Shown here: positions 7,095 to 60,112 of the stretch, in pieces | Numbering within the stretch: the stretch's first letter is position 1 | Layout: every line of letters starts with the position of its first letter | Origin: Haloplanus sp. GDY1 | GTDB lineage: Archaea; Halobacteriota; Halobacteria; Halobacteriales; Haloferacaceae | Assembly: GCF_023703775.1 (NCBI RefSeq) | Contig: NZ_CP098514.1 | Coordinates: 1,922,001 to 1,986,000, forward strand | Direction of reading: 5' to 3' | DNA length: 64,000 nt | Notes under the pieces: model-generated | The model's database searches: none | Told to the model about the DNA's origin: nothing | Seen by the model: the letters and a program-made list of their open reading frames with translations, nothing else | Made by a program: the position numbers and the translations under genes

Positions 7095-8057
7095 ATGACG
7101 GACGCAGGCATCCCGGAATCGGAGCACGCGGATCACGTACCGCCGCTGTCGGTGTCCGCCGCCGCGACGCTCACCGACCGAATCATCGACAACGTCGAGG
7201 AGGTGATCGTCGGCCAGCACGACGCCATCGAGCACATCCTCGTCGCGGCGCTCGCACGCGGCCACCTCCTCCTGGAGGACGTGCCGGGCGTCGGCAAGAC
7301 GGTCCTCGGGCGCGCGGTCGCCACCTCCGTCGACTGCTCGTTCAAGCGCGTCCAGTTCACGCCCGACCTCCTGCCCTCCGACGTCACCGGCGTCAACGTG
7401 TTCAACCAGAAGACCCGGGAGTTCGAGTTCCGACCCGGGCCGGTGTTCGCGAACGTCGTCCTCGGCGACGAGATCAACCGCGCGCCGCCGAAGACGCAGG
7501 CCGCCCTGCTGGAGGCGATGGCCGAAGAGCAGGTGACCGTCGACGGGGAGACCCGCTCGCTGCCCGATCCCTTCATCGTCATCGCGACGCAGAACGACGT
7601 CGAACCGGGGCGGACCTACGACCTGCCGATGGCCGAAATCGACCGCTTCATGAAGAAACTCCGCCTGGGGTATCCGAGCGAGGACGAGGAGACCGCGCTG
7701 TTGGAACGGGTCGCGGGCGACCACCCCATCGAGTCGCTCGACCCCGTCGCGAGCCTGGACGACCTCCGTGGCGCCCGGCGGACCGTCGCGAACGTCACGC
7801 TGAGCGAGCCCGTCCGGCGCTACGTCTCGCGGCTGGCGACCCACACCCGCGAGAACGCCACCCTCGGCGTGAGTCCGCGGGGGGCCATCGCGCTCGTCCG
7901 CGCCGCCCAGGCCCGGGCAGTGCTGAACGGCCGCGACTACGTCGTCCCGGACGACGTGCAGACCGAGGCACCGAGCGTCTGGAGCCACCGCATCGACGCC
8001 GACGGACCGGGGCGCGACGTCGTCGACGCCGCGCTGACGGCCGTCGCGGTCGAGTGA
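7095..8057 (+). CDS. MoxR-family AAA+ ATPase (cluster 1)
   Basis: A 320-residue AAA+ protein with Walker A GVGKT (DVPGVGKTVLGRA), Walker B LGDEIN (FANVVLGDEINRAPPKTQ), sensor-1 IATQN and an arginine-rich C-terminal lid domain. MoxR ATPases act as chaperones for cofactor or complex maturation and are usually encoded with DUF58 and transglutaminase-like membrane proteins, as here. The ATG at 7095 begins MTDAGIPE; the frame is open further upstream but without family similarity. DUF58 follows after one base and the transglutaminase overlaps that, so the three genes form one operon. Confidence 0.9.
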   Translation: MTDAGIPESEHADHVPPLSVSAAATLTDRIIDNVEEVIVGQHDAIEHILVAALARGHLLLEDVPGVGKTVLGRAVATSVDCSFKRVQFTPDLLPSDVTGVNVFNQKTREFEFRPGPVFANVVLGDEINRAPPKTQAALLEAMAEEQVTVDGETRSLPDPFIVIATQNDVEPGRTYDLPMAEIDRFMKKLRLGYPSEDEETALLERVAGDHPIESLDPVASLDDLRGARRTVANVTLSEPVRRYVSRLATHTRENATLGVSPRGAIALVRAAQARAVLNGRDYVVPDDVQTEAPSVWSHRIDADGPGRDVVDAALTAVAVE

Positions 8058-8058
8058 G

Positions 8059-9102
8059 ATGCCGCGCGTCCTCCCGACCCGGCGCGGCCTCGCCGTCGCC
8101 GCCGTCGCCGCCGCCGCCGTCGCCATGGGCGTCGAGTTCGGCCCGCGGGCGCTCGACGCCGTCGTCCTGCCGGCCGCCGTCGTCCTCGCGGCCGCGGGCG
8201 TCCAGCTCTACCTCCTCGATCCGCCACGCGTCGACCGGACGACGCCCCCGCCCGGCGATCCGGGAACGACGGCCACCGTCCGCCTCGCCTTCGACACCGA
8301 CACCCCGGTCACCGGCGTCGTCCGCGACCGCCTCCCCGACGGCGTCGACGGCGACGCCGAGGCGACGACCCTGATCGGGGGGGAGCCGTTCGCCTACGAG
8401 GTGACCTACCGGGAGCGGGGCGAGCACGCGCTCGGGCCGGCGACCGTCAGCGCCCGGGACGTCCTCGGTCTCGCGCGGCGCACCGTCGTCACCGAGGGGC
8501 GGGACGCGGTGCTCGTGTATCCCCGGGTGTTCCATCCCTCGCCGGCCGTGGGCGAGCGACTGCGGGGGCTGGCCGCGCCGGATCAAGGCGCCGAGCGCGG
8601 CGCGTTCGACCACCTCCGGGAGTACGCCCGCGGCGACTCGCTCCGGGACGTCCACTGGAAGTCGAGCGCCAAGCGCGAGGAACTCGTCGTCCAGGAGTTC
8701 GCCGACGACGGCGACCGCCAGCGGGTGACGATGGCGGCGAGCGCGGCGCCCGGGCGCGCCGACGCGATGGCCGAGGCGGCCGCCACCGTCGGCTACGCCC
8801 TCCTCGACGAGGGGATGGCCGTGTCGCTCACCACCCCGGACGGGGGGCTCCTCCTGACGCCGGGCGACGCCGGGCGGCTGCTCGACCACCTCGCCCGCGT
8901 CGGCGACGGCGACGTGGGCGAGAGCGCCGACGTGGTCGTCCGCGCGGACGCCGACGGGGTGACGGTCCGCGTCGACGGCGCGTCGCGGCCGTTCGACCCC
9001 GGTGACCGGCGCCGAATCGGCGTCGAGGGAGCGAGCGGGGGCGACGAGGGCGCCGGCACGGACGACGCGCCGCCGGCCGACCGCCGGGAGGTGCGGGCGT
9101 GA
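8059..9102 (+). CDS. DUF58 domain protein (cluster 1)
   Basis: A 347-residue protein with two N-terminal membrane helices (residues about 10-55), a beta-rich middle and the DUF58 signature FDHLREYARGDSLRDVHWKS near residues 190-210. The rest resembles a von Willebrand A-type fold with a degenerate metal site. DUF58 proteins are the usual partners of MoxR ATPases. It begins one base after moxR and overlaps the transglutaminase start by 4 bp (GTGA), indicating translational coupling. The last about 40 residues are a charged disordered tail. Confidence 0.85.
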   Translation: MPRVLPTRRGLAVAAVAAAAVAMGVEFGPRALDAVVLPAAVVLAAAGVQLYLLDPPRVDRTTPPPGDPGTTATVRLAFDTDTPVTGVVRDRLPDGVDGDAEATTLIGGEPFAYEVTYRERGEHALGPATVSARDVLGLARRTVVTEGRDAVLVYPRVFHPSPAVGERLRGLAAPDQGAERGAFDHLREYARGDSLRDVHWKSSAKREELVVQEFADDGDRQRVTMAASAAPGRADAMAEAAATVGYALLDEGMAVSLTTPDGGLLLTPGDAGRLLDHLARVGDGDVGESADVVVRADADGVTVRVDGASRPFDPGDRRRIGVEGASGGDEGAGTDDAPPADRREVRA

Positions 9103-11282
9103 GTACCGACGCCCGTTCGCCCGGCCTCCTGCCGGGCAGCCTCGACCCGAACTTCCGGGTCGCCGCCCTCTGCTCGCTCGCCGTCCTGACCGCCTCGTAC
9201 GGGAGCGTCCTCTATCACGTGACGGACGTGGTCGGGGGCTCGCGGCTCATGCTCGCGACGCTCGTGGGGACGGCCACGCTGGCCGTCGCCACGGGGCGGG
9301 TCCTCCGGGTGCGGACCGCGCTCCTGTTGACGGCGCTCTTTCTCGTCGGCGGGTTCGCGGTGTACTTCCTCTCCGTGCCGGAGAGCCAGCGGGCGCTCAT
9401 CTCGGTCGACCGGTTGGTCTCGGACACCGTCGCCCTGCTCACCGGGCTGTCGGTCCTGCGGCTGACGCAGGCGAACGTCTGGGCGCTGTCCGTCGCGCCG
9501 ACGCCGGTCTTCCTCTCGTGGTATCTCGCCGCCCGGCGCCAGTACGTCTCGAGCGTCGTCGTCGGCGGGGCGGCGCTCGCCCTGGTCGTCCTGACCGGCG
9601 ACGCGGGGGCGCTCACGACGCTCGCCGGGGTGGTCGGCGCGGCGGCCGTCGTCGGCTTCGGGACGCTGGATCGCTACGGCGGCACGGCCACGCAGGTCGA
9701 CACGCTGGTGATCCTGCTCGCCGTCGCGGTGGTCGCGGCGGCGACGCTGTCCGCGGTGCCGGCGACGGAGGCGAGTCCCGTCCTCCCCGACCGCGACTCG
9801 CCCTCGGGCGTGACCAGCCTCGTCGACGCCCAGGACCGGGTGGAGGTGGTCGGCTCCATCCGACTCTCGCCACAGATCCAGTTCCGCGTCGAGAGCCGCG
9901 CCGACGCCTACTGGACGACGGGCACGTACGACCGGTACACCGGCTCGGGGTGGGTGCGGTCCGGCGACACCGAACCGTACACGGGCCGGCTTCGGGGGCC
10001 GCCCGACGACGGGACCGAGATCCGACAGACGGTGACCGCCAAGACGGAACTGGGGGCGATGCCGGCGGCGTGGCGGCCGACGGAAGTCGAGGGCATCCCT
10101 TCGGACCGCGTCCGGGTGACGCCACAGGGATCCCTCCGGCCGGCGACGACGATCGAGCCCGACGAGACGTACACGGTCACCAGCCGGCTGGTCAGGCCGG
10201 ACCCCTCCGACGTTCGGGCCACCGTCGACGACTACCCCGACGAGGTGGTCGAGCGCTACACGCAGCTCCCGGCCTCGACGCCGGACCGCGTCCGCGAGCG
10301 CGCCCGGGCGGTGGCCGCCGGCGCCGACTCGCCCTACGAGAAGGCGGTCGCCATCGAGTCGCATCTGGAGTCGACCAAGCGCTACTCGCTGACCGTCGAC
10401 CGCCCCGAGGGCAGCATCGCCGACGCCTTCCTGTTCGAGATGGACGCCGGCTACTGCACCTACTACGCGACGGCGATGGTGGCGATGCTGCGGGCGGAGG
10501 GCGTGCCCGCGCGGTTCGTCACCGGGTACACGACGGGCGAGCGCGTCGGGCGGGGGGAGTGGGTGGTGCGCGGCCTCGACTCCCACGCGTGGGTGCAGGT
10601 GTACGTCCCCGACGCGGGGTGGGTCCGGTTCGATCCGACGCCGGTCGCGCCCCGGGAGTCGGCGGAGTTCGAGCGCCTGATGGACGCCCGCGAGAGCGGC
10701 GAGACGGGGGTGGACACCAACGAGACGCTCGAATCGACGCCCGTGGCGCCCGCTACCGCCCCCGACGGCGGCACGGACGCCACGCCGACGCCGACGCCCA
10801 CCGGCGGCCAGGACGCCGTGGGGACGCAGTCCGGCCCCGTCGACGACACGGGCACGGACGCGGGGACGACCACCGACGGCGGGCCGGAACTCCCGTCGAC
10901 CGAGACGCTCGCGCTGTGGGGGGTGATCCTCGTCGGCGTCGGGGCGGCGGTCAGGCGGACCGGCGCGGGCGCCCGGGCGGTTCGGGCGGTGTGGCTCCGG
11001 CGGCGCGGCCCGCGTCGCGACCCCGACGCCGACGCGACCCGGGCGTTCGAGCGACTGGTCTACCTGCTCGAACGCCAGGAGGGACCCCGGCGCCCGGGCG
11101 AGACGCCGCGGGCGTACGTCGAGCGCGTGACGACCGACGACCGCGCCCGTCGGGTCCTGCGGGCGTACGAACGCGCGCGATACGGGAACGGGGTGGATCG
11201 CCGGGAGGCGGACGCGGCGGTCGACGCCGTCGGTGAACTGGTCCGGGAGCGGACGCTCCCGACCCGACCGTTCGTCCGCTGA
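9099..11282 (+). CDS. TgpA-like membrane transglutaminase/protease (cluster 1)
   Basis: A 727-residue protein. About six membrane helices occupy residues 20-215 (DUF3488-like), then comes an outer-face region with a transglutaminase-like core: the Cys in GYCTYYATAMVAMLRAEG, the His in DSHAWVQVYVP and the Asp in WVRFDPTPV complete the triad. A Thr/Pro-rich linker and another helix (LALWGVILVGVGAAV) lead to a C-terminal DUF4129-like helical domain. Such proteins may act as cysteine peptidases or cross-linkers on the cell surface. GTG at 9099 overlaps the DUF58 stop. Confidence 0.85.
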   Translation: MSTDARSPGLLPGSLDPNFRVAALCSLAVLTASYGSVLYHVTDVVGGSRLMLATLVGTATLAVATGRVLRVRTALLLTALFLVGGFAVYFLSVPESQRALISVDRLVSDTVALLTGLSVLRLTQANVWALSVAPTPVFLSWYLAARRQYVSSVVVGGAALALVVLTGDAGALTTLAGVVGAAAVVGFGTLDRYGGTATQVDTLVILLAVAVVAAATLSAVPATEASPVLPDRDSPSGVTSLVDAQDRVEVVGSIRLSPQIQFRVESRADAYWTTGTYDRYTGSGWVRSGDTEPYTGRLRGPPDDGTEIRQTVTAKTELGAMPAAWRPTEVEGIPSDRVRVTPQGSLRPATTIEPDETYTVTSRLVRPDPSDVRATVDDYPDEVVERYTQLPASTPDRVRERARAVAAGADSPYEKAVAIESHLESTKRYSLTVDRPEGSIADAFLFEMDAGYCTYYATAMVAMLRAEGVPARFVTGYTTGERVGRGEWVVRGLDSHAWVQVYVPDAGWVRFDPTPVAPRESAEFERLMDARESGETGVDTNETLESTPVAPATAPDGGTDATPTPTPTGGQDAVGTQSGPVDDTGTDAGTTTDGGPELPSTETLALWGVILVGVGAAVRRTGAGARAVRAVWLRRRGPRRDPDADATRAFERLVYLLERQEGPRRPGETPRAYVERVTTDDRARRVLRAYERARYGNGVDRREADAAVDAVGELVRERTLPTRPFVR

Positions 11283-54473: not shown

Positions 54474-54554
54474 TCCGCAACCGGCGACCGATTATCAGAT
54501 GTTGTACTTTGAGGGGTGCGGTTATTATAAGCGATCCGTTACGACGCGACAGGC

Positions 54555-56873
54555 ATGGCCATTCCGCTTCTGGATCGCGTGCGAGAGCGCTACGGGTTGA
54601 AGTTGGCGGCCGCGCTCGTGGCCGCGTTGCTGTTGACGGTCGCGGTCGGCGGTGTGGTGAGCGCCGACGCGTCCGCGCAGTTGCGGGCGGACGTCGAACG
54701 GACCATGATCGACACGTCCGAACAGCGGGCGGACCGGCTCGACGCCTGGCTCGCCGGGATCCGGACGCAGGCCCGGGTCGCCTCCGACCACCCGGCCCTC
54801 CGGAGCGACGACCGGGCGACGGTCCGGTCGTATCTCGACGAACTCGCGAGCGAGGAGCGGTCGCCCGCCGGCGTCGTCGCCGTCCACTACGTGGACGCCA
54901 CCAGCGGCGAACTCGTGACGAGTTCGAACGACGAACTCGTCGGCGTGGATGCGCGCGCTCAGGGGGCGCCGTTCGCCCGGGAGGACGTCTCCTTCTCCGG
55001 TTCGGAGGACGTCCTCGTCACCGACCCCTTCCGCCCCGACGTGGTGGACTTCACGACCGTCGCCGTCGCGACGCCGGTCGAGGGTCGGTCGGACCGGCTG
55101 CTGGTCTACATGGTCAACTTCGAGCGGCAGGTGAGCGAGTTCGCCCCCCGAACCGAACACGGCGAGACGGTCGTCGTGAGCGAGGACGGGACGATCATCG
55201 CTCACCCGAACGCGGACCTGATCGGCTCCGCGGCGACGACGCTCTCGACGCCCGTCCCCGCCGCGGCGTTCGAGGGGGCGACGTTCACACGCGAGGGGAG
55301 CGATGCCCTCGCGGCCGCGCCGATGGAGACGACCGACTGGGCGGTCGTCGTCTCCCAGCCCGCGGCCGAGGCCTTCGCGCTCCAGCGACAGATCATCTCC
55401 GGCATCCTCGGTCTCATCCTCGTGGCCGTCATCTCCCTCTCGTTGATCGGCGTCACCGTCGGCAGCCGGACCTCCCTCTCCCTGCGCCGTCTCTCCGGGA
55501 AAGCCGAGGCGATGGCGACCGGCGACCTCGACGTCGACCTGACGACCGGTCGCACCGACGAGATCGGACAGCTCTACTGGTCGTTCGACCGGATGCGCGC
55601 CTCGCTCCGTGAACGGATCGCCGAGGTCGAGGAGGCCCTCGACGAGGCGGAGGCGGCCCGCGCCGAAGCGGAGGCGGCCCGCGCCGAGGCGACCCGGACC
55701 AACGAGCGCCTCGAACGCACCGCCGAGGCCTACGGCGAGGTGATGCGGGACGTCGCGGACGGCGACCTCACCCGCCGGATCGACGTGAACGACGAGAACG
55801 AGGCGATGGCCACCATCGGGACCGCGTTCAACGACATGGTCTCCGCCATCGAGTCGACGATCCGCGAGGTCAAGACCTTCGGCACCGAGGTGGCCAACGC
55901 CGCGGAGGCGGTCGACCGGAACGCGGCGGAGGCCACGGCCGCGAGCGAGGCGGTCAACGAGTCGGTCGCGGAGATCGCCGACGGGGCGCGCACCCAGACC
56001 GAGAACCTCCAGGAGATGACCGGCGAGGTGAACGACCTCTCGGCCAGTGCCGAGGAGATCGCCGCCACCGTCGACACGGTCGCGGACACCTCGGAACGCG
56101 CCGCGGAGGCGGGGGCTGACGGCCGCGCCGCCGCCGAGGCGGCCGTCGAGGAACTCGACGGGATCCAGCAGACGACCGAGCACACCCAGACGGAGGTCGA
56201 GGCGCTCAGAGAGGAGATGGCGGAGATCGGCGAGATCGTCGACGTCATCTCCGACATCGCGGAGCAGACGAACCTGCTCGCCCTGAACGCCTCCATCGAG
56301 GCCGCCCACGCCAGCGGCGACGCCGGCGACGCCGACGGCTTCGCCGTCGTCGCCGACGAGGTGAAGGACCTCGCCGAGGAGACCAAGGAGTCCGCGGGCG
56401 AGATCGAATCCCGCATCGAGTCGGTGCGCGAGCGGACCGAGCAGGTCGTCGAGGGCACCCAGGAGACGGGCCAGCGCGTCGCGGAGGGGGTCGAGACCGT
56501 CGAGGGCGCCATCGAGGCGCTGGAGCGGATCGCCGACTACGTCGAGGAGATCGACACCAGCATCCAGGACATCGCCGACGCCACCGACGGCCAGGCCGAC
56601 TCCACCGAGCGGGTGGTCGAGAGCCTCGACGAGGTGGCCGCGATCAGCGAGCAGACCGCCGAGGAGGCCACCGGCGTGACCGACACCGCCAGCCGCCAGG
56701 AGCGGACCCTCGCCGAGGTGGACGACGCGGCGGACGAACTGACCCGCCGGGCCGCTCGCCTGCGCGAGCAACTCGCCGACTTCGACGTGGACGCGTCGGG
56801 GCCGGGCACGACGTCCGGCGCCACCCCGGCCGGTGCGCTCGGTGACGGCGGCTACGAGGAGGGCGGACGATGA
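54555..56873 (+). CDS. htrII: Phototaxis transducer with large sensing ectodomain (HtrII-like)
   Basis: A 772-residue transducer: first helix at residues about 15-36, an outer domain of about 240 residues with dCache-type features (LLVYMVNFERQVSEF, DGTIIAHPNADLIGS), second helix about 281-303, HAMP with AMATGDLDVDL, a Glu/Ala coiled coil (EAARAEAEAARAEA), a second HAMP-like unit (VADGDLTRRIDV) and the methyl-accepting tip DIAEQTNLLALNASIEAAHA. The large ectodomain suggests it also binds a chemical ligand, as the serine-sensing HtrII of Halobacterium does. It overlaps the rhodopsin gene by 4 bp. Confidence 0.88.
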   Translation: MAIPLLDRVRERYGLKLAAALVAALLLTVAVGGVVSADASAQLRADVERTMIDTSEQRADRLDAWLAGIRTQARVASDHPALRSDDRATVRSYLDELASEERSPAGVVAVHYVDATSGELVTSSNDELVGVDARAQGAPFAREDVSFSGSEDVLVTDPFRPDVVDFTTVAVATPVEGRSDRLLVYMVNFERQVSEFAPRTEHGETVVVSEDGTIIAHPNADLIGSAATTLSTPVPAAAFEGATFTREGSDALAAAPMETTDWAVVVSQPAAEAFALQRQIISGILGLILVAVISLSLIGVTVGSRTSLSLRRLSGKAEAMATGDLDVDLTTGRTDEIGQLYWSFDRMRASLRERIAEVEEALDEAEAARAEAEAARAEATRTNERLERTAEAYGEVMRDVADGDLTRRIDVNDENEAMATIGTAFNDMVSAIESTIREVKTFGTEVANAAEAVDRNAAEATAASEAVNESVAEIADGARTQTENLQEMTGEVNDLSASAEEIAATVDTVADTSERAAEAGADGRAAAEAAVEELDGIQQTTEHTQTEVEALREEMAEIGEIVDVISDIAEQTNLLALNASIEAAHASGDAGDADGFAVVADEVKDLAEETKESAGEIESRIESVRERTEQVVEGTQETGQRVAEGVETVEGAIEALERIADYVEEIDTSIQDIADATDGQADSTERVVESLDEVAAISEQTAEEATGVTDTASRQERTLAEVDDAADELTRRAARLREQLADFDVDASGPGTTSGATPAGALGDGGYEEGGR

Positions 56874-57604
56874 TCGGCACGTCGACGACGTGGGCGGCCA
56901 TCGGCGCCGTCGGGATGACGCTCGGCACGCTGCCGCCGCTCTGGGGGTTGCGGCGGGACCCCGAGCGGCGCACCCACTACCTCGTGCTCGCGGGCGTCAC
57001 GGGCGTCGCAGCCGTCGCCTACGCGCTGATGGCCCTCGACGTCGGGACGGTCTCCGTCTCCGGGCGGGTCGTCGCCGTCCCGCGCTACGTGGACTGGTTG
57101 ATCACGACGCCGCTCATCCTCCTCTTTCTCTCCCTGCTCGGGAACACCGGCCGCGGCTCGCTCGTCCGCCTCGTCGTCGCCGACGTGACGCTGCTCGTCC
57201 TCGGCGGCGTGGCCGTCGCCGTCCCCGGCACCGTCCGCTGGCTGGCCTTCGCCGGCGGCCTCGCCGCCTTCGGCGTGCTGGTGTACGACCTGTACGGCCG
57301 CATCCCCCGGCTGGCCTCCTTCGAGACCGAGCGGGCGCGCATCCTCTTTATCACGCTCCGGAACCTGACGATCGCGCTCTGGACGCTCTACCCCGTCGTC
57401 TGGGTGCTGGCCCCCTCCGGACTCGGCCTGCTCACCCGCGACATGACGATGCTGGTGATCGCCTACCTCGACCTGATCAGCAAGGCGGCGTTCGTCGCCA
57501 TCGCGGTCGACGGCATGGACGCGCTGGCCGACGCCGACCGGCGGGACGCGGGCGCCGCCACGGCCGATCGTGGCTCCGACGCGGAGCCGGGGACCGCCGA
57601 CTGA
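56870..57604 (+). CDS. sopII: Sensory rhodopsin II
   Basis: A 244-residue seven-helix retinal protein. Numbering matches Natronomonas SRII: R72 and D75 (RYVDWLITTP), F86 at the pump's proton-donor position, Y174 (WTLYP) and Schiff-base K205 (DLISKAAF). The residue before the lysine is Ser204 instead of Thr204, the partner of Y174 in SRII signalling. The absence of a carboxylate at position 86 excludes a proton pump. It overlaps the HtrII-like gene (ATGA), the usual transducer-receptor operon. The C-terminal 30 residues are an acidic tail. Confidence 0.9.
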   Translation: MIGTSTTWAAIGAVGMTLGTLPPLWGLRRDPERRTHYLVLAGVTGVAAVAYALMALDVGTVSVSGRVVAVPRYVDWLITTPLILLFLSLLGNTGRGSLVRLVVADVTLLVLGGVAVAVPGTVRWLAFAGGLAAFGVLVYDLYGRIPRLASFETERARILFITLRNLTIALWTLYPVVWVLAPSGLGLLTRDMTMLVIAYLDLISKAAFVAIAVDGMDALADADRRDAGAATADRGSDAEPGTAD

Positions 57605-57644
57605 TCCCCTCGACCGGCAGCGTTACACTCCCCCACCCCACAGC

Positions 57645-59516
57645 ATGACCGACGTGACCGCCGAGCCGCCGATTCCGCTCCTCTACGTCGACGACGGGAC
57701 GGCTGCGGAGACGGTAGCCGCCGGTCTGGAACGCGCCGACGACCGACTGTCGGTTCGCACGGTCCCCGACGCCGACGCGGCGCTCGACGCCCTCGAGGCC
57801 GCGTCCCCCCCGCCGGTCGACGGCGTGGTGAGCGAGTACGACCCGCCCGGCACGGACGGCCTCGGCCTGCTCGAAGCCATCCGGGATGCGCATCCCGATC
57901 TGCCCGTCGTCATCTACACCGACGGAGGGAGCGAATCCGTCGCCAGCGACGCCGTCGCCGCCGGCGTCACCGACTACGTCCCGAAGACGGTCCCCCCCGA
58001 CCGCCTCGCCGAGCGGGTTCTCGACGCCGTCGACGGCTACCGGACTCGACGCCGCCGGCGCTCCCAGTACCGACAGCTCTTCGAGGACGCCCCGGTGATG
58101 TACGTCGTCTTCCGCGACGTCGGCGACGAACCGATCGTCGAGGACTGCAACGAGCGGTTTCTCGACCGCCTCGGCTACGACCCCGACGAGGTGTTCGGCC
58201 GCTCGGTCTGGGAGCTGTACGCCGAGGAGTCGATGCCCGAGGCCATCGAGGGGTTCGACCGCGGACGCGAGGGCACCTTCGGCCACCAGGAGCGCACGCT
58301 GATCGCGGCGGACGGCACCCACGTCGAGACCCTGTTCCGCGCTAGCCCCCGGCTGAACGACCGCGGCGAGGTGATCGGAACGCTCGGGCTCTACGTCGAC
58401 ATCACGGAGGCGAAGCGACGGGAACGGACCCTCGAACGCCTGCACGACGTGACCCGCGCCCTGATCCGCGCGGAGGACCGGGAGGCGGTGGCCGGGCTGA
58501 TCACCGACGCCGTGAGCGACGTCCTCGGCTACCCTCGGAACCTCGTCCGCCTCGTCGACGACGACGGGACCGAACTCCGCCCCGTCGCCGTCACCGACGA
58601 GGCCGAGGCGGCGCTCGGCGAGCGCCCCGTCTACCGGGTCGGCGAGGGGACGGCGGGCCGCGCCTACGACGCCGGCGAGACGCTGGTGTACGACGACGTC
58701 CGCACCGTCGACGACGGCTACGACCGGTCCGGGGTCCGGGCGTCGATGTTCGTCCCCGTCGGCGACCACGGCGTGTTGAGCGTCGGCGCCGCCGAGGCTG
58801 GCGCGTTCGACGACGCCGACGTCCACCTCGCGGAGGTGTTCGCGGCCAACGCGGCCACGGCGCTGACGCTTCTGGACCGGACCCGGACGCTCGAACGGCA
58901 GAACGACCGGCTCTCCGACTTCGCGAGCGTCGTCTCCCACGACCTCCGGACCCCGCTGTCGGTCGTCGAGGGCTCGCTCGAACTCGCCAGGGAGCGGTAC
59001 GACGACGAGGACCTCGACCGCGCCGCGCGGTCGCTCGACCGGGCGTTCGGCCTGATCGAGGAACTGCTGGCGCTCGCTCGTGGCGTGGACTCGCTCTCAC
59101 CCGAACCCCTCTCCCTGCGGTCGACGGTCGAGGCGTGCTGGCGGACCGTCGCCACCGACGACGCGACGCTCGTCGTCGACGGCGACGAGACGATCAGGGC
59201 CGACGAGGCCGCGCTCCGCCGACTGTTCGAGAACCTGCTCGGCAACTGCGTGGAGCACGGCGCCACGCCCGACGGGGACGGCGTGACCGTCACCGTCGGT
59301 CCCCTCGACGACGGGGCGGGCTTCTACGTCGCCGACGACGGTCCCGGCGTCCCCGCCGACGCCCACGAGGCGGTGTTCGACGTGGGGTACACCGACGACG
59401 GGGGGACGGGGCTGGGGCTCGCCATCGTCGAACGCATCGCGGACGCACACGGGTGGACCGTCGACGCCGTCGACGGGGAGAACGGAGCGCGGTTCGAAGT
59501 TCGGGGCGTCGGCTAG
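57645..59516 (+). CDS. Hybrid sensor histidine kinase (receiver-PAS-GAF-kinase)
   Basis: A 623-residue cytoplasmic kinase without membrane helix. Residues 10-125 are a receiver-like domain with the acidic pair DD16-17 and a K in YVPKT, but Glu64 (VVSEYDPPG) replaces the phosphoacceptor Asp. Then PAS (about 140-262; FEDAPVMYVVFRD), GAF (about 270-410), HisKA with SHDLRTPLSVVEGS, and HATPase with LFENLLGNCVEHG, ADDGPGVP and GTGLGLAIV. It starts 40 bp after the rhodopsin gene, so it may be part of the photosensory operon. Output partner is unknown. Confidence 0.88.
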   Translation: MTDVTAEPPIPLLYVDDGTAAETVAAGLERADDRLSVRTVPDADAALDALEAASPPPVDGVVSEYDPPGTDGLGLLEAIRDAHPDLPVVIYTDGGSESVASDAVAAGVTDYVPKTVPPDRLAERVLDAVDGYRTRRRRRSQYRQLFEDAPVMYVVFRDVGDEPIVEDCNERFLDRLGYDPDEVFGRSVWELYAEESMPEAIEGFDRGREGTFGHQERTLIAADGTHVETLFRASPRLNDRGEVIGTLGLYVDITEAKRRERTLERLHDVTRALIRAEDREAVAGLITDAVSDVLGYPRNLVRLVDDDGTELRPVAVTDEAEAALGERPVYRVGEGTAGRAYDAGETLVYDDVRTVDDGYDRSGVRASMFVPVGDHGVLSVGAAEAGAFDDADVHLAEVFAANAATALTLLDRTRTLERQNDRLSDFASVVSHDLRTPLSVVEGSLELARERYDDEDLDRAARSLDRAFGLIEELLALARGVDSLSPEPLSLRSTVEACWRTVATDDATLVVDGDETIRADEAALRRLFENLLGNCVEHGATPDGDGVTVTVGPLDDGAGFYVADDGPGVPADAHEAVFDVGYTDDGGTGLGLAIVERIADAHGWTVDAVDGENGARFEVRGVG

Positions 59517-60112
59517 GGCGCCTCGCCGGTTTCGATGGTGAAGTCGGCCTTCGGGTAGGCCACGCAGGTCAGGGTGTAGCCGTCGTCGAGTTCGTTGTCG
59601 TCGAGCATCTGCTGGTCGTCGTGGACGACGTACTCCTCGGAGTTCCCGCCGGAGGTGATCTGCCCGGCACACGAGACACACTGGCCCTGCCGGCAGGCGT
59701 AGGGCAGGTCCCAGCCCTCGTCCTCGCCGGCCTCCAGGACCGTCTCGTTCTCGGCCACCTCGATGGTGTCGCCCTCCTTGACGAACTCGATCTCGAAGCT
59801 CTCGGCCTCGTCGTCCGGCACGTCCCAGGGGCCGGACTCCTCGCTCGCCTCGGCACCGCCTTCGAGTTCGGCTCCCTCCTCGTCGCCGGCCACGGCGCCC
59901 GCGGCGACGGCCCCGCCGCCGCCGGCGCCGATGGCCCGGTTCATCGGTTCCGGGAAGTCCGTCTCGGGAACCGTCTCCGCCCGGCGTTCGAGTACCTCCT
60001 GACTGATGTCGGTGGTGGCCGTCCACCCCGTGCCCTTCGAGAGGTGGAGGACGACGGCCGTGAGCGTGAGGGCTGCGCCGATACTCAGCCCCACCAGATT
60101 TACCTCGACCAT
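59513..60112 (-). CDS. Membrane-anchored [2Fe-2S] ferredoxin
   Basis: A 199-residue protein: N-terminal helix (LVGLSIGAALTLTAVVLHLS), an acidic Gly/Ala/Glu-rich linker and a plant-type ferredoxin domain with the cluster ligands in YACRQGQCVSCAG and TLTCVAYP. The first 60 residues and the linker contrast with soluble halophilic ferredoxins, indicating tethering to the inner membrane face. TATA-like CTTAACCCC at 60131-60140 on this strand suits leaderless ATG 60112. Stop shares CTAG with the kinase stop. Confidence 0.88.
   Translation of the reverse strand: MVEVNLVGLSIGAALTLTAVVLHLSKGTGWTATTDISQEVLERRAETVPETDFPEPMNRAIGAGGGGAVAAGAVAGDEEGAELEGGAEASEESGPWDVPDDEAESFEIEFVKEGDTIEVAENETVLEAGEDEGWDLPYACRQGQCVSCAGQITSGGNSEEYVVHDDQQMLDDNELDDGYTLTCVAYPKADFTIETGEAP

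Follow-up and report, generated by a model that had tools for sequence, protein, structure and literature searches.

The window, the whole stretch of 64,000 nucleotides that was analysed, comes from the 3.4-Mb genome of Haloplanus sp. GDY1 (G000) and contains a sensory rhodopsin II (SRII) gene and its transducer gene, followed closely by the gene of a soluble histidine kinase. The features of the locus were assigned as follows.

54491..54527, forward strand: conserved block that precedes htrII and includes a TATA-like TTATTA, present in 9/9 SRII-bearing Haloplanus genomes
54555..56873, forward strand: htrII, transducer gene with HAMP and MCPsignal domains and a dCache-like sensor domain below cut-off (Pfam)
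56870..57604, forward strand: sopII, sensory rhodopsin II gene (PF01036, 173 bits)
57605..57644, forward strand: sopII-kinase gap of 40 bp, without a conserved promoter-like block (comparison of gaps)
57645..59516, forward strand: gene of a soluble REC-PAS-GAF-HisKA-HATPase histidine kinase of 623 aa (open reading frame and Pfam)
57675..58034, forward strand: N-terminal pseudo-receiver domain, residues 11-130 (Pfam Response_reg 15-125 and model secondary structure)
57834..57836, forward strand: GAG codon of Glu64, at the position of the phosphoacceptor Asp (sequence and alignment)
58938..58940, forward strand: His432 of the HisKA motif SHDLRTPL (sequence; invariant in 7/7 orthologues)
59513..60112, reverse strand: 2Fe-2S ferredoxin gene, a convergent neighbour constant in 10/10 loci

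The sopII product was taken to be an SRII from its residues, and the 10 ferredoxin-bearing loci were nine fetched loci and the window itself. The kinase frame runs from an ATG at 57645 to a stop ending at 59516. Pfam matches were obtained for Response_reg (residues 15 to 125), PAS, GAF, HisKA (423 to 479), and HATPase_c (520 to 619), in that order, with the main matches exceeding the curated cut-offs. His432 within SHDLRTPL is presumably the phosphoacceptor His. The receiver (REC) matched PF00072 at 50.4 bits, above the cut-off of 30.2, and Asp fills the column of Glu64 in L102, the closest outgroup kinase in the tree; judged from these sequence comparisons, the match is not a chance one. Solved receivers were also matched by the receiver sequence, with a best E value of 9.6e-11. 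The AlphaFold model of the kinase, built on a thin 8-row alignment with a mean pLDDT of 57.7, was usable for the receiver only, where it predicted a complete fold in (beta-alpha)5 order (E10-15 through E110-113 and H118-148; block pLDDT of 67 to 90 within a model of low overall confidence), the last helix continuing into the PAS linker.

Glu64 sits within VVSEYD, and the other catalytic residues of a receiver were present in the window's kinase, namely the acidic pair D16-D17, Thr92, and Lys114. The earlier note's description of a receiver with Glu for the phosphoacceptor Asp and with the acidic pair and Lys retained was therefore borne out. By domain order, the protein belongs to the archaeal REC-HisK class (N-terminal REC, PAS and/or GAF, HisKA, HATPase), and by the residue in the acceptor column to the aspartate-less receivers (PF00072 without the phosphoacceptor Asp). 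It is not a Bat regulator, since Pfam found HisKA-HATPase in place of BAT and HTH_10.

Full-length orthologues of the kinase were found in 7 of 12 Haloplanus genomes, its own included, at 67 to 100% identity, and the hits ranked after them showed at most 48% identity over the aligned part. A related-locus search returned 18 loci with one orthologue, that of H. ruber R35 (L124), and the clade at an identity of at least 63% was found in Haloplanus only. The acceptor position was occupied by Glu in four orthologues (G000, G075, G072, G073), Asp in two (G070, G076), and Ala in one (G068). Written as the two acidic positions, the acceptor, Thr, and Lys (DD1-DD2-D-T-K), the orthologues that keep Thr and Lys read DDETK (G000), DTETK (G075), DDETK (G072), and DDATK (G068), and those that have lost them read GDDFY (G070), GTEVV (G073), and GTDVV (G076), the first acidic residue also being absent from these three. 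The full D-D-D-T-K set was found in none of the seven. The two Asp-bearing orthologues fall outside the aspartate-less class, but they have neither the first acidic residue nor Thr nor Lys. The kinase core looks intact by sequence, with SHDLRTPL and GTGLGL invariant across the seven orthologues and the H, N, and G boxes retained.

These residues bear on the proposal that Glu64, as a mimic of phospho-Asp, keeps the receiver active and the kinase thereby constitutively tuned. In three orthologues, the window's included, Glu is accompanied by Thr92 and Lys114 or their equivalents (G000, G075, G072), and E-type kinases elsewhere that retain DD, T, and K were also seen (L100, L239, L240, L260). Against this, Glu is absent from three of the seven orthologues, and G073 has Glu but neither Thr nor Lys, so that the combination of acidic residue, Thr, and Lys is not conserved across the clade. 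According to the available part of PMC4395418, an Asp-to-Glu change is often insufficient alone for activation, and ChxR stayed active after its Glu was changed. The phosphomimic raised in the earlier note is not supported as a conserved feature, and a locked-on receiver lacks support for the orthologue group as a whole but is possible for the three with Glu, Thr, and Lys. Overall, we regard the mimic as unlikely.

To place Glu64 in a wider context, 170 genomes of the family were searched at the DNA level with the motif DC-hydrophobic-hydrophobic-S-X-Y-x-x-P. Residue X was Asp in 750 matches, Glu in 32, Gly in 17, Ala in 15, Asn in 8, Ser in 6, Thr in 4, Arg in 3, and Met in 1, all of these counts being lower bounds in which related genomes were counted separately and from which the window's own kinase was missing (DG for DC). 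Asp-less receivers thus made up 86 of 836 matches, with Glu the commonest replacement (32/86), in agreement with the share of up to 10% of archaeal receivers and the leading place of Glu (26%) given in the available part of PMC4395418. The kinase tree required at least nine changes between Glu and other residues, its 37 rows being partly selected for Glu and several of its branches long and weakly placed. Both the preference for Glu and its repeated origin speak for a mimic. Among 124 receiver stretches (L035-L333), Met at D+3 was found in 50/51 Asp receivers and 7/73 Asp-less receivers, and Asp at T+1 in 0/51 Asp, 15/32 Glu, and 9/41 other Asp-less receivers; the stretches include related sequences, so p values for both positions come out too small. 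The idea that SEYxLP marks a single receiver lineage was rejected, as residues other than Met at D+3 occurred in 66/73 Asp-less receivers of all types against 1/51 of the Asp type, and the scattering of Glu over the kinase tree also contradicted it.

Among the five domains, conservation was lowest in the receiver: its mean pairwise identity among the seven orthologues was 0.51, compared with 0.74 for PAS, 0.77 for GAF, 0.87 for HisKA, and 0.71 for HATPase, and 18 of its 120 columns were invariant. As a control, an Asp-bearing REC-PAS-GAF paralogue was compared in five genomes, giving 0.76 for REC, 0.82 for PAS, and 0.83 for GAF; in the same five genomes, the kinase gave 0.52, 0.72, and 0.77. 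The drop in the kinase is therefore not merely the general behavior of receivers. In one genome (G077, L088), this paralogue, which bears Asp elsewhere, has Met in the acceptor column and has lost other catalytic residues, another instance of receiver decay within Haloplanus. The dN/dS of the kinase's receiver was 0.36 to 0.85 and exceeded that of each other domain in 5 of 7 pairs, but it lay below 1 in all seven (values from simple Nei-Gojobori counting, applied to GC-rich genes and covering 7 of 21 pairs with branches shared between them). For the Glu, Thr, and Lys trio, it did not exceed that of PAS in two of three pairs (G000/G072 and G075/G072; 0.36 to 0.37 against 0.37 to 0.40 for PAS), which argues that some constraint persists in the Glu subclade, where the receiver may still do something specific.

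Plain decay, in which the receiver is vestigial and being lost, would account for dN/dS values as high as 0.85 and for the piecemeal loss of catalytic residues in G068, G070, G073, and G076. Its difficulties are that all seven orthologues have retained the domain, that none of the 7 pairs compared reaches a dN/dS of 1, and that the modelled fold appears complete. We consider decay quite unlikely as a full account, although it overlaps with the explanation favored below, which allows the receiver a structural role.

The earlier note had placed the kinase 40 bp behind the HtrII-SRII pair and raised a shared transcript. The distance was confirmed (sopII stop at 57604, kinase ATG at 57645), and gaps of 19 to 48 bp were found in all six genomes with both genes. 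The gap sequences were unlike one another, save for a short stretch common to G000 and G075, and no conserved promoter-like block was found in the six gaps compared. A sigma-70-type scan gave no match, this promoter type being the wrong one for archaea. The block at 54491 to 54527 is likely the promoter of an htrII-sopII-kinase unit. Because the gaps are short and lack a conserved block whereas one precedes htrII, the kinase is very probably cotranscribed with htrII-sopII. The block before htrII (TTATCAG...TTATTA) is longer than a bare TATA element and may hold a regulator site.

The gene order shared in the genus was doxX-htrII-sopII-kinase-fer-gnd, with coxAB preceding doxX where the fetched stretch extended that far. 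Of 12 Haloplanus genomes, six carried both SRII and the kinase (G000, G068, G070, G072, G073, G075), three SRII without the kinase (G071, G074, G078), one the kinase without SRII (G076), and two neither (G069 and G077, the latter 79% complete). In G071, a gap of ∼440 bp between sopII and the ferredoxin gene (L060, about 8420 to 8860) holds remnants of the kinase REC and HATPase. In G076, the end of doxX is in frame with a sopII tail, STPTAD, as found in G073, and the kinase adjoins (L098, about 8400 to 8480), a junction that marks the scar of an htrII-sopII deletion; the kinase frame is intact although SRII was lost, the loss being undated. Together, the remnants and the scar indicate that the three-gene unit predates the losses and that either side can be lost. 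Hence, the synteny is ancestral in Haloplanus but breakable.

Outside the genus, 60 of 65 SRII-like hits were fetched (E below 1e-53; 7.5 to 13 kb each). All 60 loci had htrII-sopII, with 52 passing the strict sopII cut-off, and none had a kinase adjoining sopII. Six contained a kinase- or receiver-like stretch, the nearest downstream of sopII lying about 1.4 to 1.5 kb away. The conserved synteny expected from the earlier note thus held within Haloplanus, in six of nine SRII-bearing genomes, and at none of the 60 loci from other genera.

A more direct tie to light would exist if the receiver were a docking platform joining the kinase to HtrII-SRII or the Che array and so feeding light signals into a second pathway. 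The likely common transcript and the synteny within the genus are in keeping with this, as is a related Asp-type kinase in G090 that follows an htrII-like transducer at a distance of about 130 bp (L099, 1501 to 4728). The partners, however, persist singly in four genomes, and SRII presence and kinase presence were not associated over the 12 genomes (Fisher p 0.52, a test of little power). The high variability of the receiver and the absence of the adjacency from the other-genus loci also weigh against docking, which we consider highly unlikely. An obligate light-to-gene pathway is not supported, given the three genomes that kept SRII and lost the kinase and the one in which the reverse occurred.

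The explanation we consider probable is that the protein is a PAS/GAF sensor kinase, cotranscribed with SRII yet separable from it, that carries an unphosphorylatable pseudo-receiver. The PAS and GAF domains would take in a signal, which the helical linker would relay to HisKA/HATPase, and phosphate would move from His432 onto a separate, unlinked response regulator. The receiver, lacking the usual site of phosphorylation, would accept no phosphate there, and its role would not go beyond that of a cap for structure or docking. Encoded at the end of the htrII-sopII transcript, the kinase would be made along with the blue-light sensor, neither requiring the other. Counted against this explanation were the presence of Asp at the acceptor position in G070 and G076, the synteny in six genomes, which may reflect a functional tie, and the finding that receivers with Glu, Thr, and Lys seem to evolve no faster than PAS in two of three pairs. 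A narrower proposal, that the receiver of the Glu subclade is a light-coupled, unphosphorylated docking module tying a soluble gene-regulating kinase to HtrII-SRII, strikes us as highly improbable and is put forward as speculation; if true, it would provide a second SRII output besides taxis.

N-terminal REC kinases and Asp-less receivers in haloarchaea are already known. In the available part of PMC5847659, archaeal REC-HisK proteins (N-terminal REC, PAS/GAF, HisKA-HATPase) share the domain order of the kinase, the Asp is likewise missing in part of the class, as many as 40% might escape phosphorylation, and none is described as characterized. The present kinase differs in being encoded behind htrII-sopII and in belonging to a clade, at an identity of at least 63%, that was found in Haloplanus only. 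Aspartate-less receivers, or pseudo-receivers, have the acceptor Asp replaced likewise, most commonly by Glu (PMC4395418 and PMC12632262, available parts); here, such a domain is joined to an archaeal histidine kinase. Plant PRRs, in which Glu is also typical, and CikA similarly carry a pseudo-receiver in light-linked signaling proteins, according to the available part of PMC12632262, but those are clock proteins, and the likeness is drawn at the REC fold only. In the same part of that 2025 review, the authors state that they are aware of no published study of archaeal pseudo-receiver function. A literature search on Haloplanus SRII, haloarchaeal pseudo-receivers, and sopII/htrII clusters, with most subscription journals outside its scope, returned no description of the locus. 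The genus offers a natural series with both genes, either alone, or neither, and with an acceptor position that varies among E, D, and A, which suits tests of what the pseudo-receiver does and of whether light acts on a soluble kinase.

Bat-type regulators (REC-PAS-GAF-BAT-HTH_10) also have a diverged REC, often with Glu, followed by PAS and GAF, but their output is BAT and HTH_10 rather than HisKA-HATPase. Diverged receivers in Bat are already on record (PMC5847659, available part). By their C-termini, about half of the E-type proteins resembled Bat-type regulators, the domains being established for L248 and L250; in both, a Glu receiver lies within a few kilobases of a rhodopsin-like gene, a proximity shared with the kinase. 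A rhodopsin-like hit occurred in 8 of 31 E-type regions (the 32 Glu places minus the G075 orthologue), mostly beside Bat-like proteins; Glu receivers were considered as markers of rhodopsin neighborhoods, and this is not claimed, the count having no matched control. Elsewhere in the genome holding the window (L293, about 7100 to 9790), a second rhodopsin gene, which we take from its residues to be bacteriorhodopsin-like, adjoins an open reading frame with a Bat-like HTH end.
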